DNA of 64,000 bases, from contig JANYCU010000024.1 of NCBI GenBank assembly GCA_025360125.1, positions 1 to 64,000 of the forward strand, in the 5' to 3' direction. Below are positions 30,206-45,705 of this stretch, in pieces. The notes beneath the pieces were generated by a model. The model saw only the letters and a list, made by a program, of their open reading frames with translations, was not told where the DNA came from and ran no database searches. A program made the position numbers and the translations under genes. Numbering within the stretch: position 1 is the first letter of the stretch; the number at the start of each line of letters is the position of its first letter. The stretch comes from Armatimonadota bacterium. Its GTDB lineage: Bacteria; Armatimonadota; Fimbriimonadia; Fimbriimonadales; Fimbriimonadaceae.

Positions 30206-30213
30206 ATTCCCGA

Positions 30214-30235: not shown

Positions 30236-30296
30236 AGTTCGACGGGGCTTGCCAAGGCACTGGGTGCAGTGAAGCATGAAACCCATACTGCGAAGT

Positions 30297-30635
30297 TTAG
30301 AATCGGTTGTCGTGAGGCTGTTCGCGGCTAAATCGACATCCAGATCCGTTGTCGGCACTCGGCACCTCGCCGCTATCAGGGACGTCAACGCCAATAACCC
30401 GAATTCCCGGTTCGCCGTTCGCTTTTGCCAGCGTAATCGTGCCCGAAACATACCCATCGTTATCGCTATCCTTTTCAGTCAACGAAGCTGCTTTGACCGT
30501 GTATCCAGGAAACTGCTCAACCGCAAACTTGAGCAAAAGAACTTTTTGACCAGATATATGAGAAGTAGTCTGCTTGCAGCCCATCAGCGTGGTAGCAGCG
30601 ATGATCGTAACGAGCAAAAGTGAAACCAACTTCAT
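30297..30635 (-). CDS. Small predicted lipoprotein
   Basis: 112 residues from ATG 30635 (ATG 30641 also possible). The signal KLVSLLLVTIIAATTLMGC ends in a lipobox with Cys. The body has VLLLKFAVEQFPGYTV and a DSDNDGYVSGTITL stretch resembling a calcium-binding loop, and ends with a disordered tail. Outer- or inner-membrane anchoring is expected. Function unknown. Confidence 0.65.
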   Translation of the reverse strand: MKLVSLLLVTIIAATTLMGCKQTTSHISGQKVLLLKFAVEQFPGYTVKAASLTEKDSDNDGYVSGTITLAKANGEPGIRVIGVDVPDSGEVPSADNGSGCRFSREQPHDNRF

Positions 30636-30814
30636 AGGCAAAACTCACAGTCCGCCAGCAATTTTCGAATGAGGGGACGAAAATACTGCCAGCGGACAAT
30701 GCTTCTTACGTCAAGACTAATCCGAAGTTCGCTGATTCGGGCAAAATTGGGCCCATTGGGTTCTACAAAGTGTCATAAGGCTGAACATTCATTTCAAGGT
30801 ATCGTTTAGCTGAA

Positions 30815-31828
30815 ATGCCAGTACTTTTGCTGCCCATTGCATTGGGCCTTGTTTCGACATTTGGTACTCCTCCTGCCCCAGATTACAAAGTAATTCAAAC
30901 CGCCAAAGTCGGCGGTGAAGGTGGGTTTGATTACGTCTATGCGGATAATGCGGGCCGAAATGTTTACATTGCTCGGGGTGGTCAAAATGCTCGGGTAGCG
31001 GTCTTTAATATGGACACCATGGTGAGCGCAGGTGAGATCGCCAAAACGAACGCTCGCGGAGCCGCGGTTGATTCCAAATCACATCACGGATTTTCTTCAA
31101 GCAAGCCCGTTGCAATGTGGGATAGCAAAACCCTTGCCCCCATCAAAACGATTGATGTGAAAGGAAGCCCAGATGGCATCTTGAGTGACGACTTTAACCA
31201 CCGCACCTACATTTGGAGCCATAGCGCGCCAAACGGAACGGTCATCGATTCAGCTTCAGGCGATGTCCTCGGTACTATTGACTTGGGCGGAGCGCCTGAA
31301 CAAGCCGTAACCGACGGAAGGGGCCACATTTACGTAGACCTCGAAGACAAAGATTCAGTAGCCGTTGTCGACGCGAAAACCATGAAGGTCACCGCAACTT
31401 ACAGCCTGAATGGCAAAGGCGCAGCGAACGCGGGACTCGCGATAGACGCGAAAAATGGCGTTCTATTCGTTGCCTGCCGCGAGCCATCGGTCATGGTCAT
31501 GATGAGTACCAAAGACGGAAAGATCTTGGATACGTTGCCAATCGGTGCTGGTTGCGACGGCGCAGTTTTCAATCCAAAAACCATGGAATGCTTTAGCTCA
31601 CAAGGCGATGGAACTTTGACCATTATCAAAGAAGAAAGTACAACCAAATTTGTTGTAGCCCAGACGGTCAAGACGATGCCCGGAGCAAAGACTTTGACCC
31701 TCGATACCAAGACTGGTCACATTTTGCTGATCGCTGCCGAATACGGTCCTGCCCCTGCAGGTGCAACCGGCCGGCGACGAGGACCGCTGGTCCCTGGTTC
31801 GTTTTCAATCGTTGTCGTCGGAAAGTAA
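30815..31828 (+). CDS. YncE/YVTN-type beta-propeller protein
   Basis: 337 residues with a short signal (PVLLLPIALGLVSTFG). Repeats of about 40-45 residues are visible, e.g. GGFDYVYADNAGRNVYIARG, DSASGDVLGTIDLGGAPEQA, DAKTMKVTATYSLNG and TKDGKILDTLPIGAGCDG, the YVTN/NHL propeller pattern. Such proteins are periplasmic and bind ligands or partners. No catalytic residues can be named. It is followed by a terminator. Confidence 0.8.
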   Translation: MPVLLLPIALGLVSTFGTPPAPDYKVIQTAKVGGEGGFDYVYADNAGRNVYIARGGQNARVAVFNMDTMVSAGEIAKTNARGAAVDSKSHHGFSSSKPVAMWDSKTLAPIKTIDVKGSPDGILSDDFNHRTYIWSHSAPNGTVIDSASGDVLGTIDLGGAPEQAVTDGRGHIYVDLEDKDSVAVVDAKTMKVTATYSLNGKGAANAGLAIDAKNGVLFVACREPSVMVMMSTKDGKILDTLPIGAGCDGAVFNPKTMECFSSQGDGTLTIIKEESTTKFVVAQTVKTMPGAKTLTLDTKTGHILLIAAEYGPAPAGATGRRRGPLVPGSFSIVVVGK

Positions 31829-31837
31829 ACCAATCTC

Positions 31838-31875
31838 AAAAAAGATCTTTTGCTGAAAAGCAGAGGAGCTTTTTT
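31838..31875 (+). terminator. Terminator after the propeller gene
   Basis: AAAAAAG and CTTTTTT enclose an imperfect stem with the TGCT-GAAA-AGCA tip. It ends in six T. Confidence 0.65.
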
Positions 31876-31902
31876 GTTGCCTAAATTTGGAATAATAATG
31901 GC

Positions 31903-32235
31903 ATGGCTACCCAGCAGTCCACCGTCGATCAGCTGCTCATCTACCTGTCAGCAGCGGGTGATGTTTCGGCAAAGAAAATGTTTGGCGAATACGGCATCTA
32001 TTTCGACGGAAAAATGTTCGGAATGGTATGCGACGACACGTTCTTTGTAAAGCCAACCAAAAACAATGCCGACCTAACCGCCGAGCTTGACATGGCGTCA
32101 CCTTATCATAGAGCAAAGCCTTGTATCATCGTCCCGATGAAGAAATGTTCGGATTCTGAATGGTTATCCGAACTTATTACCGTCACTGTCGACGATCTTC
32201 CTGCGCCAAAGCCAAAAGCTCCAAAAAAGAAATAG
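31903..32235 (+). CDS. TfoX N-terminal domain protein
   Basis: 110 residues. The TfoX_N signature is seen as KKMFGEYGIYFDGKMFGMVC, then FFVKPTKNN and SPYHRAKPCIIVP. The protein ends with a Lys/Pro-rich tail (PAPKPKAPKKK). In enterics full TfoX triggers competence through the CRP regulon; the N-domain alone is widespread and its role is unclear. The DprA-like and secretin genes elsewhere in the window make a competence link possible but unproven. Confidence 0.88.
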   Translation: MATQQSTVDQLLIYLSAAGDVSAKKMFGEYGIYFDGKMFGMVCDDTFFVKPTKNNADLTAELDMASPYHRAKPCIIVPMKKCSDSEWLSELITVTVDDLPAPKPKAPKKK

Positions 32236-32240
32236 GCCGC

Positions 32241-32576
32241 CTATTTGCCCGGCGGTTTCTGTATGGGAACCTTCCAAGTCATGACGGCCAATCCATTCTT
32301 GTACTCATTCGTAATAAAATACTGCCGACGTTTCGAAGTCAAAAGCCCCTTGAGCCTGCCCGTAAATCCTTGTAGCTTGGCGGCATCTTTCGGTAAGTCC
32401 ACCGGAAACGATTGATAGTTCTCGGGGCAAACCCGAATGTCTGCTTTGGCTGGGACAGTCTTGAGAAATCCGACCAAGCTAGGGTGTTCGCCTTTCAACG
32501 GCGCAAATGTGTCTTGGCGGCGATTGAAAAAGTATCGAAATGGCTGCGACGGTAAACATAACTTTGAAATCCCCAC
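32241..32576 (-). CDS. Hypothetical protein, 111 aa
   Basis: Opened by GTG 32576 with a stop close upstream. The protein has basic patches (RYFFNRRQDTF, LLTSKRRQYFITNEYK) and ends AVMTWKVPIQKPPGK. No signal or membrane helix. It converges with the tfoX-like gene at five bases. No family recognised. Confidence 0.45.
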   Translation of the reverse strand: MGISKLCLPSQPFRYFFNRRQDTFAPLKGEHPSLVGFLKTVPAKADIRVCPENYQSFPVDLPKDAAKLQGFTGRLKGLLTSKRRQYFITNEYKNGLAVMTWKVPIQKPPGK

Positions 32577-32615
32577 TAAGTTAACCGAATTCTAAACCCG
32601 ATGTGTTTCATATCT

Positions 32616-32906
32616 TCAGCATCTGAATGGCTCAATCGATCTCTGGAGCCTAATCTGGTTCCTGACAACAGTGAGCACAGCCGTCACAGCCTGCAAGTCA
32701 TTCAGGAACGGAGACGGAGTCGGTTCGTCATCCACAAAGGGATCATCAAGATTGACAATGCCTGCGATCGAAAGCAGATGGGAGTACATCAGCTGTCTCT
32801 GGCGCTGAGTTAATTTGGCCCGCAAGACCTTGAGGCTTCGGTCTCGACGTGTACGCTTAGGCAGCCAACAAGGAAGGGTAGCGATCTCTAAGGCGGGTTG
32901 AATCAT
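32616..32906 (-). CDS. Hypothetical protein, 96 aa
   Basis: ATG 32906 is preceded by an A+T-rich region with a 20-base palindrome. The product is small and helical (RSLKVLRAKLTQRQRQLMYS, then NDLQAVTAVLTVVRNQIRLQ) and starts IQPALEIATLPCWLPKRTRR. No known motif. It may be controlled by the palindrome upstream. Confidence 0.45.
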   Translation of the reverse strand: MIQPALEIATLPCWLPKRTRRDRSLKVLRAKLTQRQRQLMYSHLLSIAGIVNLDDPFVDDEPTPSPFLNDLQAVTAVLTVVRNQIRLQRSIEPFRC

Positions 32907-32939
32907 GGCGTCATATAATTCTAACCGAATTAAATGGTA

Positions 32940-32959
32940 ATTACAATAGAAATTGTAAT
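32940..32959. promoter_or_regulatory. 20-base palindrome, candidate MarR operator
   Basis: ATTACAAT-AGAA-ATTGTAAT is a perfect 8-bp dyad between two minus-strand genes, 34 bases before the ATG at 32906. The element shares AATTGTAAT with the dyad at 33994-34015 next to the MarR gene. Confidence 0.5.
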
Positions 32960-32986
32960 ATTTTGATAATTGGATGCAACCAGCCG

Positions 32987-33286
32987 TCAACGAACCAATT
33001 CTTCGATTGGCGCGGTGCGTTCTTCGTAGGTGTGCTGGGTACACAAAATGTGCATCGCTCCAGGAGCGTTGACCCAAATCGGCTCGCGAGAACCAACGTA
33101 ACACATGTAAACCATCGAGCCTTGTTTTGTCTTTGCCCAGCGGTTAATGCCCGAGCCACTATGCAAAATAACAAATGCTCCTGGGTGAATGGATTCCTCG
33201 TCCGTAAACGCGTAAATCGCCTCAAGGGAGTAATGCGTGAGATAGGCTTCGGACATAATGACGTGCCCACGAAGCTTCATTCTCAT
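32987..33286 (-). CDS. Hypothetical cupin-like protein, 99 aa
   Basis: From ATG 33286 (ATG 33280 possible). The sequence RGHVIMSEAYLTHYSLEAIY, PGAFVILHSGSGINRW and WVNAPGAMHILCTQHTYEER reads as a small beta-rich protein. No family is certain. It lies in the same direction as marR and 120 bases downstream of it, so it could be part of the MarR-controlled unit. Confidence 0.45.
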   Translation of the reverse strand: MRMKLRGHVIMSEAYLTHYSLEAIYAFTDEESIHPGAFVILHSGSGINRWAKTKQGSMVYMCYVGSREPIWVNAPGAMHILCTQHTYEERTAPIEELVR

Positions 33287-33406
33287 TGAAGAATGATTTT
33301 GTAGGAGGACAAATTCCTCCAGTGAATGCTCTGATCTTTGAATGCCTACTATCCGTAGCATGGCAGCCCCTTCACAATTCGAGACGCTGCAGCTTCACGA
33401 AAAGAA

Positions 33407-33877
33407 TCAGGAAATCTCGACTTTTAGTGCGTTCAGAACCTTTCGAAGTGTTTTGGAAGCCGAATCAGTTTCTTTTGCCCCAATTTTGCCCTCAAGCTCA
33501 GCTTCAATTCGCTTCATTTCGCCAAGAACGGATTTCACCTTTCGATGACCAGAAGAGGTCAATTCAAGATTGACCGCGCGCGAATCAATTTCGCTTGGTC
33601 TCCGAATCACATACCCAGCTGTAACCAGGCTTGTGATGGCTTCACTAATCGTTGCACGGGATAAGCCAAGCCGTTTTCCTATTTCAGCCTGAGTCTCTCG
33701 ACCATCAGCCGCCCAAACGGCACTAAGTAAGTCAAATGAGGCAGACGTCAGTCCTTGATCAATGATTGCGGGACGCATTGCCTGAGCAACAAAATCGTTC
33801 ACTTGGCAAGCAAGACCTATGAGGCTTTCGATGGATGACATAATTTCACAATTCGCTTCGTTGCGATTCGAAGCCAT
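33407..33877 (-). CDS. MarR-family transcriptional regulator
   Basis: 156 residues from ATG 33877; ATG 33841 would give 144. Winged helix-turn-helix of the MarR fold: LTSASFDLLSAVWAAD, ETQAEIGKRLGLSRATISEA, VTAGYVIRRPSEIDSRAVNL (wing with D-S-R) and a C-terminal helix. MarR proteins are dimeric repressors released by small ligands, usually regulating themselves and neighbours. The dyad TACAATT/AATTGTA at 33994 lies in the divergent region to the 34066 gene. Confidence 0.9.
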   Translation of the reverse strand: MASNRNEANCEIMSSIESLIGLACQVNDFVAQAMRPAIIDQGLTSASFDLLSAVWAADGRETQAEIGKRLGLSRATISEAITSLVTAGYVIRRPSEIDSRAVNLELTSSGHRKVKSVLGEMKRIEAELEGKIGAKETDSASKTLRKVLNALKVEIS

Positions 33878-33993
33878 CCTTAGCCACGAATGTACATTAT
33901 AGCTTCGGAACCCGAACAAGTTGCAAGGGGGGACCGTTTTTGGATCCCTAACACTCCTCATCGCACTGGGTACTTTGGCCTGTCCATGGTTTA

Positions 33994-34015
33994 TACAATT
34001 CGCAATCAAATTGTA
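33994..34015. promoter_or_regulatory. Inverted repeat in marR upstream region
   Basis: TACAATT-N8-AATTGTA, 22 bases, located between marR and the divergent copper-amine-oxidase-domain gene. A likely MarR operator by its position and dyad. TATAAA/TTGATT on the minus strand overlap it. Confidence 0.5.
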
Positions 34016-34065
34016 ATGACGGGAGTCCATATGGTTAAGGCACACCGCCTTTAGGAAATTCCACC

Positions 34066-35145
34066 ATGAAATTAACAAGCTATCAAGCAGGGAAACTCCT
34101 TGGCATTGCTGCAATTACTGCTTTTGCTGCGATTAGTCAAGCAAGACCAATATATGTCAACGTCGACGGACGGAACGTTCGATTCGACGGAACCAAACCC
34201 CAGATGATGGGCGACCACATAATGGTCCCTCTCCGGGGCATCTTCGAGAGAATGGGCGCCAGCGTCGACTGGAATTCACAAGACCAAATGGTCATGGCCA
34301 ACCGTGGCAACACCAAAGTCGAACTCCGAATTAACAACAACGAGGCCTACATCAATGGCAGAGCCGTTCCTGTCCAATATCCGGCGCAAGTCGTGGACGG
34401 ATCCACGATGGTTCCGATTCGATTCATCTCTGAGTCGTTGGGTGCATACGTTGATTGGGACGAAACTTCGAGTACGGTCAATATTTCGACTAACGGTACG
34501 TCCAGCGGAAATTACCGGAACAATAACGGCAATAACGGCGGAAGTAGCGACAACAATACAGACAATCGAAACAATGTACTTTCGATCCAGCCACGAGGAA
34601 GTGTCTTGCCAGTAAAGCTCGACGCGGATTTAAGTTCCGATAACTCGCAGGTCGGCGACAAATTTACCGCAACGATCGATACTAATGGCAATAATGACTA
34701 CTTCGGTTTGCCACAAGGAACCAAGGTTCAAGGACACGTTAACTTTGCTCAGGCAAAGCGAAACGATACTCCGGGCGTACTTGGTTTGTCATTTGACCGC
34801 TTGCTCCTTGCCAATGGTCGAAATATTCCGATTACGGCATCGCTTATCGGATTAGACAAAGACAGCGTCCGAAACGAAGACGGTCGAATCGTAGTCAACC
34901 CAGATTCTCAGAAGAAACAGGATGACCTGAAGTACGTCGGAACTGGTGCTGGAGCCGGTGCGTTGATCGCGCTCGTGACCAAAGGCAACGTTATTACAAA
35001 CACGGTGATTGGCGGCGCTCTTGGGTATTTATACGAGACACTCATCGATAAGCCAAAGACACGCAATGTGACCTTGGCTCGAGGAACCCCACTCGGAGTC
35101 AGATTCGACCAGGAAGCGAAGGTTCGGATCTTCTCAAACAACTAG
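34066..35145 (+). CDS. Secreted protein with copper-amine-oxidase N-terminal-like domain
   Basis: 359 residues with a signal peptide ending ISQA. Residues ~28-145 form a Cu_amine_oxidN1 domain: IYVNVDGRNVRFDGTKPQMM, HIMVPLRGIFERMGASVDW, then VPIRFISESLGAYVDWD. The name is historical; the domain binds cell-wall or surface components and has no oxidase activity. A Gly/Asn linker (NNNGNNGGSSDNN) leads to a C-terminal beta domain and a glycine-rich hydrophobic stretch (GAGAGALIALVTKG, VIGGALGYLYE). It likely sits at the envelope. It diverges from marR. Confidence 0.8.
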   Translation: MKLTSYQAGKLLGIAAITAFAAISQARPIYVNVDGRNVRFDGTKPQMMGDHIMVPLRGIFERMGASVDWNSQDQMVMANRGNTKVELRINNNEAYINGRAVPVQYPAQVVDGSTMVPIRFISESLGAYVDWDETSSTVNISTNGTSSGNYRNNNGNNGGSSDNNTDNRNNVLSIQPRGSVLPVKLDADLSSDNSQVGDKFTATIDTNGNNDYFGLPQGTKVQGHVNFAQAKRNDTPGVLGLSFDRLLLANGRNIPITASLIGLDKDSVRNEDGRIVVNPDSQKKQDDLKYVGTGAGAGALIALVTKGNVITNTVIGGALGYLYETLIDKPKTRNVTLARGTPLGVRFDQEAKVRIFSNN

Positions 35146-35163
35146 TCGACATCTGAGGATAAC

Positions 35164-35250
35164 AAAAAATCGCGCCTGACTCACCTATGGGGAGAGTCCT
35201 CAATGAAGAATGCCACAAAGGCATCCCCCATTGAGATGGCGCGATTTTTT
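35164..35250. terminator. Large structured hairpin with A/T-tract ends
   Basis: Outer stem AAAAAATCGCGCC/GGCGCGATTTTTT is a perfect 13 bp (35164-35176 with 35238-35250). Inside, CTCAATG/CATTGAG and ATGCC-ACAAA-GGCAT stack as a second arm, plus a free side segment. It can terminate in both directions. It ends the 34066 transcript, but the inner structure is more elaborate than needed for termination. Confidence 0.7.
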
Positions 35251-35562
35251 GGTGTCAGGTAGCCATCGTTCCATGCAAAGAATGACTGGCATTTGAACAT
35301 ATGCCGGGATGCTGGAGCGGGATGAATTAGGGGTTTCGGGTATCCGGCGCAGCTACAACCAAGTTTCCGGATCGGAGGGCGTACAGTCTTGACTTGAAGG
35401 ATGTTCGCACAATGTTCAAGTCGATGGCTCAAGCAACACCATGGACTTGTAAGTGGCCGGGCCGACGGAACTCATAGTTGACCCTCGGAAAGGAACTTGG
35501 TGGCGGTCAACGATGAGCGAGTGGCAGTTGTTGGCGAGGGCGAGAGAAAATTGCGCTCAGTA
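35251..35562. other. Intergenic region without a convincing gene
   Basis: About 310 bases between the hairpin at 35164-35250 and the PRC-barrel terminator. A minus-strand frame (35181-35432) has no ribosome-binding site and atypical composition. Nothing further seen. Confidence 0.4.
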
Positions 35563-35599
35563 AAGAAAAAGGGCTTGATCATTGAATGATCAAGCCCCC
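35563..35599 (-). terminator. Rho-independent terminator of the PRC-barrel operon
   Basis: On the minus strand GGGCTTGATCATT and AATGATCAAGCCC form a perfect 13-bp stem around one base (35571-35597), followed by five T and a T-rich tail. Confidence 0.9.
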
Positions 35600-35615
35600 A
35601 AGGAATGATGCTCGG

Positions 35616-36071
35616 CTACGTCTTGTCGACCGTAATCATGTCCGTTCCAATCGCCCGCACCTTCGAGCCAGGCACCAAGGTCTCATGTGCGCCGAGCCCA
35701 AAAACGCCGTCCGTCCGAACCGAAATCTCCTCAATTGACCCTTGCCGATTCATTGTGAAGTCGTGCATGTGACCAATCATCTTGCCCTCAGCATCGATCA
35801 CTTTCAGCTTCTTAATTTCGTGGGTTGTACGGCTTTCGGGAGCTAATGTATGCCCCGCGTTCCAATCGATCAACGTATACGATTCGATGGTAATGGCATC
35901 CGGCCCGTTTGCTTCAATGCTCTTAAAAGGAAGCAATCCTTCTCCTCTCTCGCCTTTCACGACGAGTGCGCTCAAGTTCAGACCTACATAAATCAGATCT
36001 TCGACTTTTCCTATCTCCGCGCCATCGGCCATGCTGATGACTGGTTTTCCAACAAATTCTTTGGTTCTCAT
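35616..36071 (-). CDS. PRC-barrel domain protein
   Basis: 151 residues from ATG 36071, chosen because the small gene before it ends four bases upstream. Two PRC-barrel halves: VGKPVISMADGAEIGKVEDL with GLLPFKSIEANG, and EIKKLKVIDAEGKMIGHMHD with GVFGLGAHETLVPGSKV. PRC barrels occur in photosynthetic reaction centre H and RimM and serve as protein docking folds. In non-phototrophs stand-alone forms are of unknown role, often in stress or sporulation contexts. It is cotranscribed with the small membrane protein at 36076 and ends at a strong terminator. Confidence 0.82.
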   Translation of the reverse strand: MRTKEFVGKPVISMADGAEIGKVEDLIYVGLNLSALVVKGERGEGLLPFKSIEANGPDAITIESYTLIDWNAGHTLAPESRTTHEIKKLKVIDAEGKMIGHMHDFTMNRQGSIEEISVRTDGVFGLGAHETLVPGSKVRAIGTDMITVDKT

Positions 36072-36075
36072 GAGG

Positions 36076-36243
36076 TTAACGCGAACCACCGTACCAGCCA
36101 GACCGCGAACCGTGGTACCCAATTCCACCAAGGAGCCAGATGATGGCAAGGACCATCAGGATGGTGCCGAGGCAGCCTCCGAGCCCAATGCCGCCGCCGC
36201 CCAGCAACAAGAAAATGACAATGATAATGAGAAGTGTGCTCAT
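36076..36243 (-). CDS. Small glycine-rich membrane protein, 55 aa
   Basis: Short gene from ATG 36243 to TAA 36076-36078. The product starts STLLIIIVIFLLLGGGGIGL, continues GGCLGTILMVLAIIWLLGG and ends with a polar tail GYHGSRSGWYGGSR. Two hydrophobic helices separated by glycine resemble DUF3309-like small membrane proteins. It precedes the PRC-barrel gene by four bases, so both are coexpressed; together they may form a membrane-docked pair (inference). Confidence 0.65.
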   Translation of the reverse strand: MSTLLIIIVIFLLLGGGGIGLGGCLGTILMVLAIIWLLGGIGYHGSRSGWYGGSR

Positions 36244-36442
36244 AGTTACACTCAGTTTGCTGGGAAGATGTCATTCGAACAAGTCAACCCTTTTGGTGTC
36301 AGCCACTTTGTGTCTTACCTGTCACTACAAGAGACTTCAATCAATTTAGAAAATAACGCGAATTCGAAGTCAGAAACCTAAAGGTATGTGATTTGGTGGC
36401 CATATATGCATGACTATGAACCCCATACACACTTGTGATATC

Positions 36443-36514
36443 ATGAGTAACGACGCAATAGTTGAAAAGATCCTCGACGATGCACCTTTCATTTTTGGAA
36501 ATGGAGCCACCTGA
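36443..36514 (+). CDS. Possible 23-aa leader peptide before LuxR-type gene
   Basis: ATG 36443 opens a 23-residue frame (starting SNDAIVEKILDDAPF) whose TGA lies 14 bases inside the next gene, so translation could be coupled. The acidic, helical sequence is plausible as a peptide, but chance cannot be excluded. Confidence 0.25.
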   Translation: MSNDAIVEKILDDAPFIFGNGAT

Positions 36515-37172
36515 TCAATCTCAACCCGAAACAGAAATCATGCCCAAACGTGAATTATCCCCTCGCGAGGAAGAAATTGTACAATTATGCGTCGATGGGC
36601 TGACCAACGATGCCATTGCTCATCGTCTTGACATCAGCGTCGGAACGGTCAATACGTACTGGCTCCGCATTAAGCTCAAAGTGGGCGGCCTAGGGAAGAC
36701 CGACACTGTCGTCCGCGTGGTTAAAGAACGGGCCGAGAAAGCGCTTGCCGACTCGAATTTCGAACGTGCCACCCTCGTCGCGCTTCTGGCCGATAAAGAG
36801 AAAGGACTCCTCGATCTGCGGTCTACTATCGCACTGCTCCATCTAGCAATGGATCAGATCAAGTCGACCGTTTGGGCGACAGATACGGATTTGCTGATCT
36901 ACTCTATGTCCAACGGAGAATTTCCCGCAACACACTTTGGCGTCCTGTGGGATGTTGGGAAAACCGTCTATGAGATTTTCAAGACCACGGATTCGCTTGA
37001 CCTAGCAATAAGCGCCCACCACCAAGCCCTTCAAGGAGAGGAAACCGAGGTCAGTTTAGTGGGGCAATTTGACGGCATGCTCTTGAGGGTTCTACCCCTT
37101 AAGGAGGACACTGGAGAGATTATTGGTACCGTCGGGATCGTCAACACGGTGAGACAAAAAATGTCTGACTAG
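36501..37172 (+). CDS. LuxR-type HTH regulator with C-terminal PAS-like domain
   Basis: 223 residues from ATG 36501; an earlier in-frame ATG at 36462 is possible. The N-terminal GerE/LuxR helix-turn-helix is ELSPREEEIVQLCVDGLTND followed by AIAHRLDISVGTVNTYW. A coiled linker (~60-110, EKGLLDLRSTIALLHLAMDQ) joins a PAS-like sensor: VWATDTDLLIYSMSNG and VGKTVYEIFKTTDS, with DGMLLRVLPLKEDTGEIIG as its final strands. DNA-binding domain first and sensor second is the reverse of the common order. It has no receiver domain, so it may sense a ligand or redox cue directly. It converges on the cluster of paralogues to the right. Confidence 0.82.
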   Translation: MEPPDQSQPETEIMPKRELSPREEEIVQLCVDGLTNDAIAHRLDISVGTVNTYWLRIKLKVGGLGKTDTVVRVVKERAEKALADSNFERATLVALLADKEKGLLDLRSTIALLHLAMDQIKSTVWATDTDLLIYSMSNGEFPATHFGVLWDVGKTVYEIFKTTDSLDLAISAHHQALQGEETEVSLVGQFDGMLLRVLPLKEDTGEIIGTVGIVNTVRQKMSD

Positions 37173-37206
37173 GATTGACTATTCTATGAGTTCTTGGTCG
37201 AGTCAG

Positions 37207-37590
37207 CTAGCGAATTAAAATTCCGAGATGAAAGGCTGAATTGACGGCCTGAAGTCGATTGTTCGACTTGAGTTTGTTAAACAGGCAGATGACGTAACCG
37301 TCGACGATAGCTTTCGGCTCTGAAAGCATTTCACTAATTACTCGATTACTCTGTCCTTCTGCCATCAATTTCAGAATTTCGAGTTCCTTTCCGACGATGA
37401 TGACGGGGCATTGAGGATTCCGATCTACATTCATCTGGTAGTAGTATCGCTGTCTTAGCTGCATGATCTTGATGATGTGGGTTTGGTGCATGGCAATATG
37501 GTTCGCCAAAAGATTTTCTGACGACTTAACCCGGTGAAACTTCGTCGGCCGCTTTGGGGAGTTTTCAACTGACCTATACGAACTTAACAT
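37207..37590 (-). CDS. Single-domain LuxR-type regulator
   Basis: 127 residues. The N-terminal half is basic (SSYRSVENSPKRPTKFHRV). The C-terminal ~62 residues form a GerE helix-turn-helix: VGKELEILKLMAEGQSNRVI, then SEMLSEPKAIVDGYVICL, FNKLKSNNRLQAVNSAFHLG. The recognition helix is less conserved than usual. No receiver or ligand domain. Its start overlaps the end of the 226-residue gene by 17 bases, so they are cotranscribed and probably work together. Confidence 0.78.
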   Translation of the reverse strand: MLSSYRSVENSPKRPTKFHRVKSSENLLANHIAMHQTHIIKIMQLRQRYYYQMNVDRNPQCPVIIVGKELEILKLMAEGQSNRVISEMLSEPKAIVDGYVICLFNKLKSNNRLQAVNSAFHLGILIR

Positions 37591-38254
37591 TTTTCATATC
37601 CTCCGTAGGGTCTTTCGGTGCTGCATCGGCTATCCACGAGTCGATTGGAACATGAAGCTTTGGATAATGGGTCCATGAGCACATGTGACTCGTATTCCAA
37701 ATGCTAAACCCGCCTTCAACGCGGCACATGAGCGCTGGATGGGTAAATAAGTGGTGCATGGTACTTCGCTCATCGATTGAAATTGCGGTGATCTCATTGA
37801 ACTCTAGGAACAAGCGAGCGCCATTACAAAATTCGACCTCGGAGAGGACCAAACTTCGTTGACCTTCTTGAGTTGAAATAAATTTTTCGTGACGTTCTCG
37901 ATACGTTTCGTGCGTCATTTGGGTAATCGACGATCTCATCGACATTTCTTGCTTCAGGAAAGAATCTGGCAGCGGGTTGGTGTAGACGGTTATTCCAATC
38001 AACGAGTGGCCGGAAAATGCATAAACTTCATCTTTGCCTTCAATGATAAGGCTCTGCTCCTTGAAAATTGAAAGGTTAATGTCATCACAAATCTTCTTGG
38101 CAAAACCTAAGTCACTCTGAGTAAAAATGTGCTTTCGACCTGAAGTTAAATGCAAATGGATTTCGATAGGGTGAATAGGGTTCGCCAATGTAGTTTGCAT
38201 TTGAACCAAAATAGATGGTTCGAGGGTGGTGGGCGATGTACTTGTCTGATTCAT
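37574..38254 (-). CDS. Unknown protein, intact member of a local paralogue pair
   Basis: 226 residues, soluble. It opens with a Ser/Thr-rich stretch, then PIEIHLHLTSGRKHIFTQ, and later has VEFCNGARLFLEF, then GGFSIWNTSHMCSWTHYPKL. The first two blocks look alike (hydrophobic strands around an N/S-G turn), hinting at an internal repeat of a beta-rich unit. It aligns over its length with the broken gene at 38654-39319. I do not recognise the family. It is translated together with a LuxR-type regulator and may be the ligand-binding or antagonist partner (inference). Confidence 0.6.
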   Translation of the reverse strand: MNQTSTSPTTLEPSILVQMQTTLANPIHPIEIHLHLTSGRKHIFTQSDLGFAKKICDDINLSIFKEQSLIIEGKDEVYAFSGHSLIGITVYTNPLPDSFLKQEMSMRSSITQMTHETYRERHEKFISTQEGQRSLVLSEVEFCNGARLFLEFNEITAISIDERSTMHHLFTHPALMCRVEGGFSIWNTSHMCSWTHYPKLHVPIDSWIADAAPKDPTEDMKNVKFV

Positions 38255-38653
38255 ATTTTTCCTTGCGGTTCCTTTCTCAAAAAATCATGATGAGGTCCTT
38301 TATGTTTTCATTGTCTTCTATCGCGAGAACTACTGAAAGTCAGCTCTTATTCTGTCGGCCCTGTGGCGTCCGATGAAAGGTGGACACTTAGCTTCGAAGT
38401 GACGACAACGGCTAAGTACCCGTGAGGGGGCAAAATACCCAGTGAGGTGAAAGCAACTTCAAAGGTTTAACCAAGAAAAAATGAGTTGCTCAGACCTGGC
38501 TGCCGAGTAAAGACCTTTGGACATCGGAATTGAGCAAGTTCATCAAAATAGAGGATTTACTGACAGTGCAAAATTGGACTTTGAGCGCTAATTCCGTTGG
38601 AACAAAATTTAAATGCAGGTTCGACGCTCCTAGAGCAGTCATGCTCTGGACGG
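38255..38653. promoter_or_regulatory. Upstream region of the paralogue gene with direct repeats
   Basis: About 400 bases without a gene. TACCC-GTGAGG at 38417-38427 and TACCCA-GTGAGG at 38436-38447 are near-identical direct repeats 19 bases apart. They could be activator sites for one of the LuxR proteins. No promoter box is clear. Confidence 0.35.
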
Positions 38654-39319
38654 TCACATTTTAATGCAGACCTGAAGTCGCGGAGCCTGTACCTTAGATT
38701 TCAAATTGATCCCTGATCGAGCATCGGCAGAATCTGATAGCTCAGGCTGGATTTCAAGCCGAGGATAATTAGTCCATCTTAAGATGTGGCCCGTGTTCCA
38801 AATACTGAGTCCTCCACCAAGTCTGCGACAGCCCAGGGAGGAGTGAGAATATATATGGTTGATGACTGCTAGTTCATCAATCCCAACCTCCGGCACTTGG
38901 CTAAATTTGAGAAAGACCTATAGTCCGCTACAAAACTCGAGTTCGGTAATGATTGTGGCTCGTTTCTTGTCGAGTTCCTTTACTACCCCAGATTGCTCAT
39001 GGCGGGCGGATACGCAATCATAGGGCGTCCGATTGGATGACTCGCATCCGATTTCCGTGACAACGATCCCCAGCGATCTCTCCCGCTCAAAGAAGTATTC
39101 AAATGGCAACTTCGGTCGAAGCATCAGACCGATAACCTCCTTTCCTTCATAATTTGAAATTTCTTTCTTGCTGTCGCGGATAATGCCTTGACGTCGGAAA
39201 ATGTCTGGATCAGAATCATCATAAATGTTCCCAAGAAGCGAAAGACCGTCCCGAAAGTAAGTGTGCTTCTGACCATTGCACAAATGCAATCGAATTTCAT
39301 CAGCGGAGAGTATATTCAT
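38654..39319 (-). pseudogene. Paralogue of the 37574 gene broken by an in-frame amber codon
   Basis: The frame from ATG 39319 runs 133 codons to TAG 38918-38920, then continues open in the same frame to 38654 (reading VFLKFSQVPEVGID and GGLSIWNTGHILRWTNYPRL). The full length of about 221 codons matches the intact paralogue. There, the residue in place of TAG is Arg in NGARLFLEF. The N-terminal part has EIRLHLCNGQKHTYF, matching HLHLTSGRKHIF. It is a recent pseudogene, a two-product gene, or a read-through/sequencing case. Start overlaps the end of the 39316 gene. Confidence 0.7.
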
Positions 39320-39528
39320 CTGTCCGTGAACGCTAAAAGGCGTTGCGAATAAGTGGCCAACGATGATTTGTCCGAATGAAGTGTCGCGAGGGTCTCAAAG
39401 ATCTGGTTCTTTCTATCTACCTTGGTTTTTCTAGACCTCAGTCGCTTTTGGTTGGCAATTACCTTGGCTTGTTGCTTGAGGCTCTGAAAGGCTGATGAAC
39501 TCATCGAAATTGACTGGGGTTGATTCAT
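39316..39528 (-). CDS. Small hypothetical protein, 70 aa
   Basis: ATG 39528; the stop overlaps the start of the broken paralogue (ATGA). The sequence is basic and helical: AFQSLKQQAKVIANQKRLRS, RKTKVDRKNQIFETLATL. It resembles a small DNA- or RNA-binding or anti-factor protein only in composition. The MNQ start is shared with the 226-residue paralogue. Function unknown. Confidence 0.5.
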   Translation of the reverse strand: MNQPQSISMSSSAFQSLKQQAKVIANQKRLRSRKTKVDRKNQIFETLATLHSDKSSLATYSQRLLAFTDR

Positions 39529-39810
39529 GATGATTTTCCTGTTGTGAACTTGGCCGACCGGAAAGGTAGTTAAAATATCTCCTTCCTCGGTCCCCGACTT
39601 CAAAGAGCAATTGCGGTTTCTAGCCAAGGCTCTTCAACGTTCCAATTAGCAAAGCTGGAACTAAATACATTTTTCACCTTCAGGAAAATAATTAAAAGTC
39701 GTTTCTATATCTGTCATCCCGTGTCTGTACGAGTAGTTGTAGACACAGTTTGATAGGACAAACTTTAATTTAGACAAAAAAGTGGACCACGAAACTCGCG
39801 ATCCAAACAA

Positions 39811-39866
39811 GAAAAAGAAAGGGCTCCCCGGGGCTAATATCCTGGGGAGGAATCAAGGAGCCCTAT
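39811..39866 (-). terminator. Rho-independent terminator of the PEP-CTERM gene
   Basis: On the minus strand GGGCTCC and GGAGCCC close a hairpin with a second inner pairing CTCCCC/GGGGAG, followed by TTTCTTTTTC. Confidence 0.8.
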
Positions 39867-39878
39867 GAATGGATGTGA

Positions 39879-40508
39879 CTAGACGTTACGCTTTCGTCGC
39901 ATTCCAAATAGTCCGAGCAATCCGCAACCAATACCCGCTAATGCGGTTGGCTCTGGAACTGCTGTCTGAGACCCGGTCACGTGGGCCGTAATAGAAGATG
40001 AATTTCCCGGGGCTATGGAGAGATCGTTGACGGCCATCGTGAAGGATCCTATTGCTCCTGCATTACTGAAGACGAAGGTTTGGGGGGTGTTGTCAAAGTC
40101 GACGAAGACTCCGCCAAGATTATTTGACACTGAGCCTGTCAATATATCTGTGAAAGTGGCGGTTGTTCCGCCCGTAATAGTAACTGGCGCAGTGAACGTG
40201 ACTTTGAGTTGAAAAGTGTTTCCATTATAAGTCGCGTTGGTCATGTTCAACGTCAGCGAACCAAGATTGTTAAAATTTGATCCTGGCGTTGGGTCTCCGC
40301 CAAAGTCCAGGTTGCCACCAACCGTCGTGTTGTCGAATGTTGAATTGCTGTAGGAAAGTCCGAGCAACGTATTGGTTGCGCCGAAAGCCTGGGCATTAAA
40401 CCGAGCTAGCGTTGAACCGGTCAGGTGAACTTCGGCAGCGTTTGCGACTCCAACGAGAAGTCCGAGGGACGAGGCAATAGTGAGAGCCTTTGCAAAGTAA
40501 GAATTCAT
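39879..40508 (-). CDS. PEP-CTERM sorting-domain protein
   Basis: 209 residues: signal peptide (SYFAKALTIASSLGLLVGVANA), a beta-rich Asn/Thr-rich body (~25-180, many N-x-S/T) and a C-terminal sorting signal VPEPTALAGIGCGLLGLF ending MRRKRNV. The VPEP motif, hydrophobic helix and basic tail are recognised by exosortase, which places the protein in the outer envelope or extracellular polysaccharide. Exosortase itself is not in this window. It ends at a strong terminator. Confidence 0.92.
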   Translation of the reverse strand: MNSYFAKALTIASSLGLLVGVANAAEVHLTGSTLARFNAQAFGATNTLLGLSYSNSTFDNTTVGGNLDFGGDPTPGSNFNNLGSLTLNMTNATYNGNTFQLKVTFTAPVTITGGTTATFTDILTGSVSNNLGGVFVDFDNTPQTFVFSNAGAIGSFTMAVNDLSIAPGNSSSITAHVTGSQTAVPEPTALAGIGCGLLGLFGMRRKRNV

Positions 40509-40765
40509 TTCATTTCTCCATTAAACTGGCCAACTCAAAGATAAGAAGGCACATTAAGACTATGAAAGACTCTGAGAACGATCACCAGTCGGCTTTTTTC
40601 GTGTCACTCTAATCGTGTCTTAAATCTCACGGACGGCAAACAGCGAAGTGTCAACACCTTGCGCCTTGTCCGCCGAAGCACAATTCCCCGCCAACGCCTT
40701 GTTGGCCTGACGCCGGGACGGATGCTTGCTTTCCTCCTCAGATATACTAGAGACCACATTTCAAT

Positions 40766-40778
40766 CCCTTGGTAAGGG
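40766..40778 (+). promoter_or_regulatory. Hairpin over the thrS ribosome-binding site
   Basis: CCCTT-GGT-AAGGG can hide the AAGGGAGG ribosome-binding site, which lies eight bases before ATG 40789. A possible translational control element; stability is modest. Confidence 0.4.
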
Positions 40779-40788
40779 AGGCACAAAC

Positions 40789-42576
40789 ATGAAACTCAAG
40801 TACGAAGATTCTTATCTCTATCGTCTGCGGCATTCGGCCGCCCACCTGATGGCCCAAGCCGTCACCGAGCTCTATCCCGGAGCAAAACTCAGCATTGGAC
40901 CCCCAATCGAGAACGGATTCTACTACGACATCGACTTCCCAAGCCCGCTCAAAGAAGAAGAGCTGGAGTCGATCGAAAAGCGCATGAAGGATCTCGCCAA
41001 ACTCGATCAGCGCATCGAACGAACCGAAGTCTCCCGCGATGAAGCCAAAGCCCTCATTCTTGACGCCACCATCCCTGGTATGGGTGATGCGGTCGCCGAA
41101 TATAAGCTCGAACTCCTCGACGCTATTCCCGAAGGCGAAGCAATCAGCTTCTTCGAGCAAAAGCGCATGGACCGCGACGGAGTCCAACATCGCTTCCTCG
41201 ATCTGTGTCGCGGCCCCCACGTCGAAAGCACCAAGGAGATTAAAGCTTTCAAGCTCACGTCAATCGCCGGAGCATACTGGCGCGGAAACGTCAAAAACAA
41301 AATGCTCACACGCATTTACGGCACCGCCTTCGAATCGAAAGAAGAACTCGAAGCTCACCTTGCCCACATCGAAGAAGCCAAAAAACGCGACCACAGAATC
41401 CTTGGTCGCGAACTCGGCCTCTTCATGTTTAGTGCGCGAGTAGGCACCGGACTCCCTCTTTGGTTGCCCAAAGGCGCTCAGCTGAGAATGACGCTGGCCG
41501 ACTACATGAACCATGAGCAGATGCGGCGCGGCTATCAGCCTGTCGTGACTCCGCACCTCGGAAGCATCAAACTGTTCGAGACGTCCGGTCATATATACAA
41601 CTACCGCGACAAGATGTTCCCATTTATGGAGGACGATGAAAAGGAAACGTTCATTCTCAAACCGATGAATTGCCCGTTCCATATCGAAATCTATCGATCA
41701 CAAATGCGCTCATATCGAGATCTTCCCGTCCGGTATGCCGAAATGGGAACGGTCTATCGATACGAGCAAAGCGGCGAAGTGACCGGAATCTTGCGAGCTC
41801 GTGGCTTTACCCAAGACGACGCTCACCTATTCGTCCGTCCCGATCAACTTCTTGAAGAGTTCACGTCAGTCGTCGATCTGATGCAGGCAGTTCTCAAAAA
41901 GCTTGAACTCACAAACTATCGCGCCAGAGTTGGAACCAAAGACCCTACTTCCGACAAGTACATTGGCGACGACGAGAATTGGACCCTCGCTACCGAGGCA
42001 ATCCTCAAAGCATGTGATGACAAAGGCCTCGAATACGAAGTGTCGCCTGGCGACGCCGCATTTTACGGTCCGAAGCTCGACATGATCATCAAAGACGCCT
42101 TAGGTCGAGATTGGCAAATGGGAACGGTTCAGGTGGACTACAATTTGCCCGAGCGATTCGAACTCGAGTACATTGGCGAAGATAGCAAGCCACACAGGCC
42201 AGTCATGATTCACCGAGCACCATTTGGCTCACTTGAGCGAATGATTGGGCTTTTGACCGAGCAGTTCGCCGGAGCTTTTCCGTTCTGGCTGGCCCCGGTT
42301 CAAGTATCGATACTTGCGATAGCCGATCGCCACAATGACTTGGCATCCGAACTGATGGTCAAGTTACGCGACGCTCATGGCATGCGGGTTGAAATTGACA
42401 CCAGACGAGAGACGCTGGGCAAGAAAATCCGGGAAGCTCAAATGCAAAAGATCCCGTACATGCTCATCATTGGTGACAAAGACATCGAGAACAACACTGT
42501 CGGGGTCCGCTGCCGCGAAGAAGGCGACCTTGGCGCCATGTCACTCGAAGAGTTCGTTAGTAAGACGAAAGAGTAG
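40789..42576 (+). CDS. thrS: Threonyl-tRNA synthetase (no TGS domain)
   Basis: 595 residues from ATG 40789, with AAGGGAGG eight bases upstream. The editing domain has HSAAHLMAQ (HxxxH) and DLCRGPHVE (Cys and His of the editing site). The class II core has MNCPFH (zinc Cys), motif 2 near YRYEQSGEV and TGILRARGFTQDDAHLF (zinc His), and motif 3 HRAPFGSLERMIG (zinc His). The C-terminal anticodon domain starts LAPVQVSILAIADRHND. The TGS domain of usual ~640-residue ThrS is missing: the editing domain starts at about residue 10. The region upstream is not in frame to encode it. Confidence 0.96.
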   Translation: MKLKYEDSYLYRLRHSAAHLMAQAVTELYPGAKLSIGPPIENGFYYDIDFPSPLKEEELESIEKRMKDLAKLDQRIERTEVSRDEAKALILDATIPGMGDAVAEYKLELLDAIPEGEAISFFEQKRMDRDGVQHRFLDLCRGPHVESTKEIKAFKLTSIAGAYWRGNVKNKMLTRIYGTAFESKEELEAHLAHIEEAKKRDHRILGRELGLFMFSARVGTGLPLWLPKGAQLRMTLADYMNHEQMRRGYQPVVTPHLGSIKLFETSGHIYNYRDKMFPFMEDDEKETFILKPMNCPFHIEIYRSQMRSYRDLPVRYAEMGTVYRYEQSGEVTGILRARGFTQDDAHLFVRPDQLLEEFTSVVDLMQAVLKKLELTNYRARVGTKDPTSDKYIGDDENWTLATEAILKACDDKGLEYEVSPGDAAFYGPKLDMIIKDALGRDWQMGTVQVDYNLPERFELEYIGEDSKPHRPVMIHRAPFGSLERMIGLLTEQFAGAFPFWLAPVQVSILAIADRHNDLASELMVKLRDAHGMRVEIDTRRETLGKKIREAQMQKIPYMLIIGDKDIENNTVGVRCREEGDLGAMSLEEFVSKTKE

Positions 42577-42590
42577 GCGAAACAAAAACT

Positions 42591-42612
42591 CAGCTCCCTA
42601 ACAAGGGAGCTG
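42591..42612. terminator. Hairpin between thrS and convergent gene
   Basis: CAGCTCCCT-AACA-AGGGAGCTG, a perfect 9-bp stem. On the minus side it is followed by AGTTTTTGTTT, so it best serves the gene at 42625; the plus side has no T-run but may also stop thrS. Confidence 0.7.
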
Positions 42613-42624
42613 ATCTCAAAATTC

Positions 42625-43110
42625 TTACTTTAATCCTGAAGCCAACAAATCACGAACCGCCGGCGTTGTTCCCGAAACCATCACAAGTAGACGTGTGTTC
42701 GAAACGGTCTTTATGCTCCATTCCTTAAAATATTGCCGATCCCTCAGGATGTGAGCGTCAATTACGGGCTTGATTACATCCTCGGCCTTGAGTTTTCCGC
42801 TCAGGGGAGCCAAATACACCACCGCAATTCCGCTCTTCTTGTATCCGTAGGTGAGCTGCACAATATTGGTGGGTTTGGTCAATTTAGGGCAGTTTGCACT
42901 CGTCGCTGTAAACATAAACCCGGACATTTCGATGAACTGAGCCTTGTCAGCGTGCATGATTTCAAATCCCGCGGCTTTTGACATCATGTGAAAAGGGATC
43001 AGCTTAATCGCAGGCTTTTGCTTGCGCGTCGGCTTTGAAACCTGTTCTTGACCCAAGCATACGGGGACCGCAAAAGACAAGATGAGAAGGGAACTAAGAA
43101 TTGGTTTCAT
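42625..43110 (-). CDS. Secreted hypothetical protein, 161 aa
   Basis: Signal peptide KPILSSLLILSFAVPVCLG, then a basic patch (SKPTRKQKPAIKLIP). The body has FMFTATSANCPKLTKPTNIV and SIKTVSNTRLLVMVSGTTPA and is predicted beta-rich. It carries one cysteine in the mature part. No known domain. It has its own terminator and appears monocistronic. Confidence 0.6.
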   Translation of the reverse strand: MKPILSSLLILSFAVPVCLGQEQVSKPTRKQKPAIKLIPFHMMSKAAGFEIMHADKAQFIEMSGFMFTATSANCPKLTKPTNIVQLTYGYKKSGIAVVYLAPLSGKLKAEDVIKPVIDAHILRDRQYFKEWSIKTVSNTRLLVMVSGTTPAVRDLLASGLK

Positions 43111-43139
43111 GATTTAAGTTATGTTAACATAAACAAAAT

Positions 43140-43171
43140 GGTGGCGGCCCAATTTGGATTGAGCCGCCACC
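43140..43171. terminator. Terminator downstream of the prepilin operon
   Basis: GGTGGCGGC and GCCGCCACC pair over nine bases with a 14-base loop. TTTTT follows on the plus strand and ATTTTG on the minus strand, which serves the lipoprotein gene. Confidence 0.75.
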
Positions 43172-43186
43172 TTTTTACTGGCCGGA

Positions 43187-43435
43187 TTAGCCTTTCGATT
43201 TCATACCGGTTTGAGGAAGTCCAGTCTTTTCACCTGGCTTAGCAGGAACGACGCCATCGTCTCCCAATCCACCACCGCGTGCGATCTTCGAATCGCTGGC
43301 TCCCTTTTGAAGTGGTGCCATCTGTTCTTGTGTTCGAGGTTTTTCGGTTGTTGCAGAACCAGGATCGCCCGAGCTGCACCCAATGAGGGAGCAACCGAGA
43401 ACGATACTTGCCAATACAATCAGTCGGTCTTTCAT
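43187..43435 (-). CDS. Small lipoprotein after prepilin
   Basis: 82 residues with the lipobox LIGC at Cys20 (KDRLIVLASIVLGCSLIGC). The mature part is disordered and rich in Gly, Lys and Ser (ARGGGLGDDGVVPAKPGEKT). It starts two bases after the prepilin stop, so it is cotranscribed with it. Similar short lipoproteins follow DUF1559-type prepilins in these bacteria; the function is unknown. Confidence 0.7.
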   Translation of the reverse strand: MKDRLIVLASIVLGCSLIGCSSGDPGSATTEKPRTQEQMAPLQKGASDSKIARGGGLGDDGVVPAKPGEKTGLPQTGMKSKG

Positions 43436-43437
43436 AG

Positions 43438-44313
43438 TTAGAATGAAAGGTCGTTCAGCGTGCCGTCAAGTGTCCAAAGATACTTAGTGACATCGGTGAT
43501 GACTGCACCTTCGGCTCCATTGGTGTAGGTTGCTGTCTGGTAGTCAGTACCAGCCGCGAGCAAACCGTCGTTCAAGAACTTGGTGTGACCATCGGTGAAA
43601 GTAACAACGGCGCCGTTGTATGGCTTAATTGCTCGGGTGCTTGCCGTGATCTTTCCGACTGCTACCGGGTTGTTGCCCGACCAGTTACCGGAACCTGGGG
43701 TCCCATCGTATCGGATGCATGCAAGAGGAGCTGGCAATGTGATTGGCCATGCTCCAGGAGGATTAGCTTGATAGTAGCCAATCGTTGGATTGATTCGGAA
43801 TTGTTGCGAACTCGTGAACATGACGGTCTCAGCTGGTTTGACTCCGGCAGTTGACGATCGTGCCAAGGCGCTTACGCAGTTGTACCAAGGTGAGAGGAAC
43901 ATGTAGTTGTATCCGTACTGAGAAAGTCTCTCTTGATTGTATTGGGTTGCATTTGGACTTGCAGACGTGTAAACGCCGTCCTTGTCGCCAACGCCTGGAT
44001 CAACCAGCATCTGTACGTTCTTCATGTATGGCTGCTGTAGAACAACCCATGTAACCGCGGTGCCAGCTTGCAACTGTACTCGAAGGCTGGTTCCCAAACT
44101 GTCATCACCGTTTGATTCGAGAACGAAGTAGTCGTCGTTGTCGCCAGCGTACATGATTTCAGCCAGGCCCAATTGTTTGTTGTTGCTGATTGAAGAAGCT
44201 TTCTTTGCGGCAAGCTTGGCTTGAGCAAAGACAGGGAAGAGGATTGCTGCTAGAATTGCAATGATTGCTATGACAACCAGCAACTCAATAAGAGTAAAAG
44301 CACGATTTCGCAT
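43438..44313 (-). CDS. Type II secretion/type IV prepilin-like protein (DUF1559-type)
   Basis: 291 residues from ATG 44313. A short basic leader MRNRA is followed by the methylated pseudopilin helix [15 protein letters not shown] with Glu at +5, then a soluble domain with [19 protein letters not shown] and a C-terminal [13 protein letters not shown], the H-x9-DG-like signature. The cleavage position is Ala rather than the usual Gly. It is cut by prepilin peptidase and assembled into a pseudopilus or pilus. No assembly genes are adjacent. It is the canonical member to compare with the array at 57.9-61.6 kb. Confidence 0.9.
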
Positions 44314-44449
44314 GATATAGAATCTCCCACTCCTCAGTAGTCTGAGAAATGTTAAGACCATTATAAGAAATGTATTAGAGAAAACCCAAGGACTTTTTGA
44401 AAGAAAGTGAAAAAAAACTGACCTTTTGCAAAATCAATGACAAAAATCG

Positions 44450-45547
44450 CTAAGAAAAACTGTTGAATCTTTGTCGAAACGACAAAATTTTTGCGTTTTC
44501 GCTGGTCGGGCAAACCCGGTTTGTTAAGAGAATTGAGAACTTTCCGTCGTCAGGATCACACCAAATTGAAGTCCCGGTGAATCCAGTGTGCCCAAAAGAC
44601 CGTGGTCCAAACAAATTTCCTGCCGATGATCCTTCCGCAGATTTCGTATCCCACCCCAACGCCCGAGTACTTTTGTCACTCTGCCGACGGGTAAATCCAT
44701 CCCAAATGTCAGGCCTTACAATTTCTCCTGCTCGGCCCATCATGTGCGAAATGAATAGGTATAAATCCCTAGCATTCGAGAACAATCCAGCGTGTCCCGC
44801 AACTCCGCCCAGCACCGTTGCAGCTGGATCGTGGACCTCGCCTTCTATATAGGGCGGATTATCGCCATATAGCCGAGCCGCATCCTCGATTCCGTGGCGT
44901 TCATGTCGAAGCTTTGTTCGCCATGGCTCCATCACTTCTGTTGGCGCGCAACGCTCGCGTTGGAGCAACGCCACCGTTGGCACCCCGTGACGAAAGTACC
45001 CGGTGTTTGTCATTCCTAACGGCTCAAAAACCCGACGATTCAAGAACTCGTCAAGCAGTTCACCCGTGACTCTCTCAATTGCTTCGGCAACCAAGATCAT
45101 GCTCAAGTCACTGTAAACCGTCTTAGTGCCCGTCTCGCATTCCAACTCCTCGGCGTAAATTGCATCCATAACTTCGCTCGCCTTGGTATACGACAAGTGG
45201 TAACGACGAAATGCCACCAGTCCGGAATCATGAACCATCAAGTTTCGAAACGTGATCTTGCCTTTTCCATTGACGGCGAACTCAGGAATAACGCTCGCGA
45301 CAGTCTGATTAAGATCAAGGGCACCGTCTTGCACCAAGATCATCACCGCCGTCGTCGTACCGATCACCTTACTGAGACTCGCCAAATCCCAGATTGTCTC
45401 GAGAGTCACGGGTGAAGAACCTTGGTCGTACGTGAAAGTGCCAACCGCTCCGAAGAAAACGTCGTCGCCTCGTCGCACAGCGTAACATGCCCCAGGAAAG
45501 ACCTCGTCACGAACTGCTTCGGTGAGCAGGGCTTTAGCGTGATGCAT
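44450..45547 (-). CDS. Serine hydrolase of the beta-lactamase/PBP4* family
   Basis: 365 residues. The nucleophile motif is SLSK (S-x-x-K) in DLASLSKVIGTT, the second is YSDL (Y-x-N position; Asp for Asn), and the third is GHTGFTGT (HTG). GACYAVRRGDDVFFGAVG opens the fold and AGLFSNARDLYLFISHMM is typical of class C-like esterases. No signal peptide, so cytoplasmic. Such proteins act as esterases, D-amino-acid peptidases or transacylases rather than antibiotic-degrading enzymes. Substrate unknown. Confidence 0.88.
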   Translation of the reverse strand: MHHAKALLTEAVRDEVFPGACYAVRRGDDVFFGAVGTFTYDQGSSPVTLETIWDLASLSKVIGTTTAVMILVQDGALDLNQTVASVIPEFAVNGKGKITFRNLMVHDSGLVAFRRYHLSYTKASEVMDAIYAEELECETGTKTVYSDLSMILVAEAIERVTGELLDEFLNRRVFEPLGMTNTGYFRHGVPTVALLQRERCAPTEVMEPWRTKLRHERHGIEDAARLYGDNPPYIEGEVHDPAATVLGGVAGHAGLFSNARDLYLFISHMMGRAGEIVRPDIWDGFTRRQSDKSTRALGWDTKSAEGSSAGNLFGPRSFGHTGFTGTSIWCDPDDGKFSILLTNRVCPTSENAKILSFRQRFNSFS

Positions 45548-45705
45548 AGCGGTATTTTATTCGACACTTGTGAGGACTATCGAATCTTTCGCCGATCAAT
45601 TAACCGCAGATACGCCCCTGGGCTTGTCGTCCCACACATCATTTCGTGCCTTTTGAATACAAATTGACAGTTTGGCCTTGCATTGATCAACTTGAAGTAT
45701 CCAGT

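Follow-up and report, generated by a model that had tools for sequence, protein, structure and literature searches.

We identified a family of bacterial proteins that, by sequence comparison, is undescribed in every library tried; its members appear to be soluble, about 200 residues long and built of two homologous small domains, and are most likely binding or adaptor proteins. A soil-type bacterium of the Fimbriimonas family, from which we analyzed a 64,000-nucleotide stretch of contig JANYCU010000024.1 (hereafter the window), has this two-repeat protein in two copies, one working and the other broken, beside two LuxR-type regulators. The most economical account, which we hold with roughly even confidence, is that of a binding-protein family with a local LuxR tie in one bacterial family: the tie would be a habit of the Fimbriimonas family and not a defining property of the two-repeat family, the nearby LuxR-PAS-like protein would be a separate one-component regulator with the layout of FG214, and the broken copy would be an older, fast-evolving one cut by a stop. 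A first-pass annotation had proposed a new signalling cassette in which the two-repeat protein senses a ligand for a LuxR protein. Its observations are partly confirmed and its interpretation as a whole is partly supported, but a fixed signalling cassette is unlikely because relatives of the two-repeat protein usually occur without those regulators.

The genes of the locus are themselves present. Along the minus strand, in the direction of transcription, the order is a small basic ORF (39316-39528), paralogue B (38654-39319), a gap, paralogue A (37574-38254) and LuxR127 (37207-37590); the LuxR-PAS-like gene (36540-37172) lies on the plus strand, convergent toward LuxR127, A and B. As annotated in the first pass, the two paralogues are an intact and a broken copy of one family: A is open over its 226 residues, B is a single frame broken by one in-frame TAG (38918-38920, minus strand, read in the sequence), and both contain the motifs GG-x-SIWNT-x-H and W-T-x-Y-P. 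The single-domain LuxR gene said to overlap A does so by exactly 17 bases; it encodes 127 residues, and its GerE domain scores 29.0 bits against a Pfam cut-off of 23.5. The ATG of LuxR127 is preceded, at a distance of 9 bases, by a GGAGG Shine-Dalgarno sequence (37600-37604, minus strand) that lies within the 3' end of gene A. Given this overlap and the Shine-Dalgarno sequence of LuxR127's own, the two genes are probably translated together from one message. In a codon-usage scoring for which 16 window genes served as the training set, the annotated frame scored best for A (0.083), LuxR127 (0.110), the LuxR-PAS-like gene (0.130) and the part of B before its stop (0.092). Promoter and terminator scans of positions 36000-40000 gave nothing beyond shuffled sequences, and the sole Rfam match in 30000-46000 was a tRNA at 30087.

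Paralogues A and B share 34% identity over residues 27-205 (E 1.1e-32 in a search of their own genome), a stretch that includes the TAG of B. After this TAG the codon score of B falls to -0.121, a non-coding-like value, and in the family tree the end branch of B has a length of 1.38, compared with 0.53 for A and 0.24 for the G091 member, as expected if B is under relaxed selection. No clear Shine-Dalgarno sequence precedes B. A recent origin of B as a copy of A is not supported, since the two do not group together, in a placement that the long branch makes unsure. The small basic protein of the first-pass annotation did not hold up: the ORF (70 residues from ATG 39528, or 103 from TTG 39627) is probably no conserved gene, having no homologue among the other genomes of the 85 searched (best E 0.017) and a codon score of about 0 that does not exceed those of the other frames, 70-100 codons being few for such scoring. 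In its favour are just the ATGA that it shares with B and, ahead of its own ATG, an AGGA. Two of the five parts of the proposed cassette, B and the small basic ORF, hence look degenerate or unreal, and LuxR127 looks diverged.

Searches of Pfam, NCBIfam, PHROGs, PADLOC and the PDB sequences returned nothing significant for the family; a known enzyme or domain was rejected on this basis. Nor was the two-repeat family found in open-licence PMC papers, among which the one relevant article overall concerned FG214 (PMC13060918). Outside the phylum, tblastn against 72,556 plasmids and against 50,697 phage records was negative and no match was found in IMG/VR contigs, which led us to reject an origin in mobile elements or phages. 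Within the phylum the distribution is patchy: querying with the single protein gave relatives in 4 of 61 genomes, and profiles of five and 16 rows gave members in 6 of the 85 Fimbriimonas-family genomes and in 15 of 291 Armatimonadota genomes (20 places), respectively. When 84,980 species genomes were scanned with a pattern tuned to the SIWN subfamily, only two loci came up, one in a Fimbriimonas MAG and the other in an uncultured Armatimonadetes bin. The tree (which includes G124, B and L031, the second G130 copy, and leaves out G123) has two deep groups, and since rows from the Fimbriimonas family fall in both, they form no single group on this tree. The set A5 includes G162, which is cut by a contig end, and leaves out G124, G123, B and L031. 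With 20 places and no library entry, the family offers enough members for modelling, structure solution or knock-out, in a phylum about whose regulation little is known.

The N- and C-terminal halves of the protein are homologous, aligning in register over 62 columns (hhalign E 1e-4, probability 58%). AlphaFold2, supplied with 4 sequences, predicted a pair of beta-beta-alpha-beta-beta-beta units with helices connecting them (mean pLDDT 67.6, pTM 0.64), and the C-terminal half modelled alone was poor (pLDDT 50). Because the model derives from only 4 sequences and is of middling quality, and the C-terminal half models poorly, the predicted fold is not secure. Conserved in 13 or more of 16 members are G39, F44, F64, P96, E139, G145, G182, N187, P198, P203 and W207, among which there is no active-site-like set of acids, histidines or cysteines. 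This makes a binding or adaptor role likelier than catalysis, and A is probably, from its sequence, a non-enzymatic binding protein. The SIWNT subfamily alone may still be enzymatic, despite the lack of a family-wide catalytic set.

Structural comparisons of the model gave weak matches (best Foldseek E 0.3 in the PDB; best viral E 0.003 at TM 0.20). One repeat unit superposes weakly on small phage proteins of 60-75 residues whose function is undescribed (probability up to 0.97, TM by target up to 0.66, E 0.13 or worse) and on the small barrels of the Hfq/Sm type; no sequence relation was found to either, and the family differs from both in having two repeats per chain. An RNA-binding protein with two fused Sm/Hfq-like barrels could be proposed from the Foldseek matches to Hfq (probability up to 0.41, E 0.65 or worse) and from VIA-align, which superposed Hfq 7ogm_D over 58 residues at 2.4 Å (Z 2.5) and YaeO 6jie_A over 58 at 3.6 Å (Z 2.6). 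We consider this improbable. The Hfq/Sm comparisons, with Z of 2.0-2.5, were made on a model of pLDDT 67.6, all matches lie below safe cut-offs (Z below 5, E above 0.1), and no Hfq or LSM family matched at E up to 1. Moreover, the Sm fold has a helix before strand 1, whereas the helix of the model sits between strands 2 and 3.

LuxR127 is a diverged, HTH-only LuxR protein whose recognition helix reads E-P-K-A-I-V-D-G-Y where relatives have S-K-R-T-V-D-F-H. It has no orthologue among the 85 genomes of the Fimbriimonas family; 79 of them contain a match, over the HTH only (residues ~36-125), and this is mostly another LuxR gene of about 100 residues, of which the genome of the window has its own (C55). 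LuxR127 resembles these single-domain proteins, which almost all genomes of the family encode, in its HTH-only architecture and at 27-39% identity over the HTH, but it is an extra copy with a changed recognition helix and a unique N-terminus. Neither LuxR127 nor the LuxR-PAS-like protein matched the autoinducer-binding domain of AHL quorum-sensing LuxR proteins in Pfam (E up to 1).

The frame of the LuxR-PAS-like gene is open from TTG 36462 (236 residues, with GerE at residues 32-80, 42.5 bits); this start was set aside for ATG 36540, the likely one by comparison with homologues, which mostly begin there, and which leaves 210 residues. Of the reverse-order LuxR-PAS protein described in the first pass, the N-terminal LuxR HTH stands, whereas the PAS half falls below every Pfam cut-off: the window protein matched PAS_4 at E 0.14, and 4 of 11 close members did so at E up to 0.1 (best 0.0035), with all PAS models sub-threshold. 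Homologues with 52-66% identity occur in five other genomes, together with a second copy in the same genome, and the sensor half is present in 24 of 291 Armatimonadota genomes, 20 of these being among the 85 of the Fimbriimonas family.

A preprint describes FG214 of Fimbriimonas ginsengisoli as a heme-binding HTH-PAS one-component switch with heme ligands His156 and His175, and states that most LuxR-PAS proteins have the opposite domain order (PMC13060918). We recognized FG214 as a 214-residue frame in G007, with H156, H159, M172 and H175. The window protein shares with it an N-terminal LuxR HTH, a helical linker and a putative C-terminal sensor; identity is 40% over 81 residues of HTH and linker, beyond which BLAST found no match. 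Among window-type proteins (the G004 gene, L056, being excluded from the histidine alignments), H160 is conserved in 11 of 11 and H132 in 10 of 11, and their equivalence to the FG214 ligands is ambiguous in the sensor-half alignment. As the likeness is limited to HTH and linker and the PAS matches are sub-threshold, the window protein is at most a candidate heme binder. The analogy concerns the gene at 36540-37172 alone and does not extend to A or B.

The HTH-first layout of FG214 is thus carried by 20 of the 85 genomes of the Fimbriimonas family and is in some of them encoded with a separate receiver-domain protein. In G003 and G012, which also have a divergent HTH-only LuxR gene, an upstream receiver-domain gene overlaps the LuxR-PAS-like gene by 14 bases, and in G017 the receiver gene comes after it. 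Neither kind of neighbour adjoins the window copy. The intervals L051:1044-2160, L052:948-2013 and L053:1393-2794, each with a LuxR-PAS-like gene and a single receiver-domain gene (with a 14-base overlap in two of the three), may encode a split response regulator.

We counted GerE places in the 14 genomes that hold 18 examined loci of the two-repeat family, a set that leaves out G123 and does not count B as a separate locus. GerE lay within 6 kb of the family gene at 4 of 6 loci in the Fimbriimonas family (two places in the window, four in G091, one in G012 at 5.4 kb and two in G017) versus 1 of 12 elsewhere, the latter being a response regulator 4.4 kb away in G116; at 7 of these 12 outside loci the contig extends less than 6 kb on at least one side. 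Altogether, 13 of the 18 loci had no LuxR HTH within 6 kb, 7 of the 13 having such a short flank. The chance expectation was 0.01 to 0.04 per locus. For the five Fimbriimonas-family loci other than that of the window the combined Fisher P was 5e-4, a value that is too good because the loci share descent and are not independent, and for the four long-contig loci elsewhere it was 0.17; G011, with no LuxR gene on its contig, entered the test with its longer flank as the distance. The first-pass annotation would have been abandoned had homologues never occurred next to LuxR genes, and that is not the case: proximity exceeds chance in the Fimbriimonas family. The overlap with a LuxR gene, for which it proposed a neighbourhood survey, is confined to the window.

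The nearby LuxR genes also vary by locus, with HTH-PAS and HTH-only types in the window, G091 and G012 and two MalT-type proteins in G017, where the gene next to the family gene encodes a divergent MalT-type LuxR protein. G091 repeats the convergent order of LuxR-PAS and family genes seen in the window; in its region L035:2231-4826 two HTH-PAS LuxR genes flank an HTH-only LuxR ORF, and farther along there is a fourth LuxR gene. A copper amine oxidase N-terminal domain protein is encoded near the locus both in the window (34066-35145) and in G091 (L035:2-667). In G004 and G012, an oleate hydratase gene (MCRA, Pfam-tested) is directly downstream of the family gene on the same strand (L008:7631-9925 and L009:7690-9942). 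Other contexts, read by eye, comprise M16-type peptidase and PrmC-like genes (G011) and xanthine-dehydrogenase-like genes (G129 and G130).

Could the locus nevertheless be a signalling cassette? In such a cassette A, at one time perhaps together with B, would sense a ligand or act as an anti-activator, binding either LuxR127 or the LuxR-PAS-like protein and controlling how that regulator binds DNA. The LuxR anti-activators and partners TraM, QslA and QteE are small proteins encoded beside LuxR-type regulators, and A is likewise a small protein adjoining one; however, none of the 16 members matched them in Pfam or NCBIfam, and for most relatives of A no LuxR gene lies nearby. The overlap of A and LuxR127, the LuxR genes near 4 of 6 Fimbriimonas-family loci, the four GerE places and convergent order in G091 and the adjoining MalT-type gene in G017 all favour a cassette, as does the presence of the LuxR-PAS-like gene in 5 of the 6 Fimbriimonas-family genomes that encode the two-repeat protein (P 0.0024). 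Against this, inside the genus 4 of 5 such genomes have both (P 0.15), and the genomes with the two-repeat protein are the larger ones (median 5.3 vs 3.3 Mb). The LuxR-PAS-like gene is absent from all 9 positive genomes outside the Fimbriimonas family, where LuxR proximity is also rare (1 of 12 loci), and 15 of its 20 carriers within that family lack the two-repeat protein. The same gene set recurs at no other examined locus, the type of LuxR gene changes between loci, and LuxR127, like the basic ORF, has no orthologue. We therefore judge a TraM/QslA-like cassette unlikely, and the gene set is not conserved as one.

The locus could also be a decaying neighbourhood, in which B, LuxR127 and the basic ORF are duplication remnants and only A and the LuxR-PAS-like gene work, unrelated to each other. 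The TAG, the long branch and the non-coding-like end of B (-0.12) point this way, as do the altered helix and missing orthologues of LuxR127 and the unsupported basic ORF. But LuxR127 is open, with coding-like codon use (0.11), a GGAGG and the 17-base overlap, and the convergent order is seen again in G091; this explanation, too, seems doubtful to us.

Under the preferred account of a binding-protein family with a local LuxR tie, A would bind something, be it a small molecule, a nucleic acid or a protein, and its co-translation with LuxR127 would adjust the amount or state of the latter. That A acts directly on LuxR127 is unlikely; were A to control a LuxR protein after all, a new kind of LuxR partner would be added. 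A far more speculative version, to which we give very little credence, casts the family as a new class of proteins that bind a signal and partner HTH-only LuxR proteins: a metabolite-binding A would pair with the co-translated LuxR127, with its degenerate recognition helix, and titrate or retarget the nearby HTH-PAS regulator, as a split sensor, decoy and effector circuit in the Fimbriimonas family.

Elsewhere in the window, at 57894-61643, six adjacent minus-strand ORFs of 195-263 residues have, by eye, similar N-terminal hydrophobic stretches and CLSNVKQ-type motifs; we take them to be a tandem family of pilin-like (DUF1559-like) proteins.
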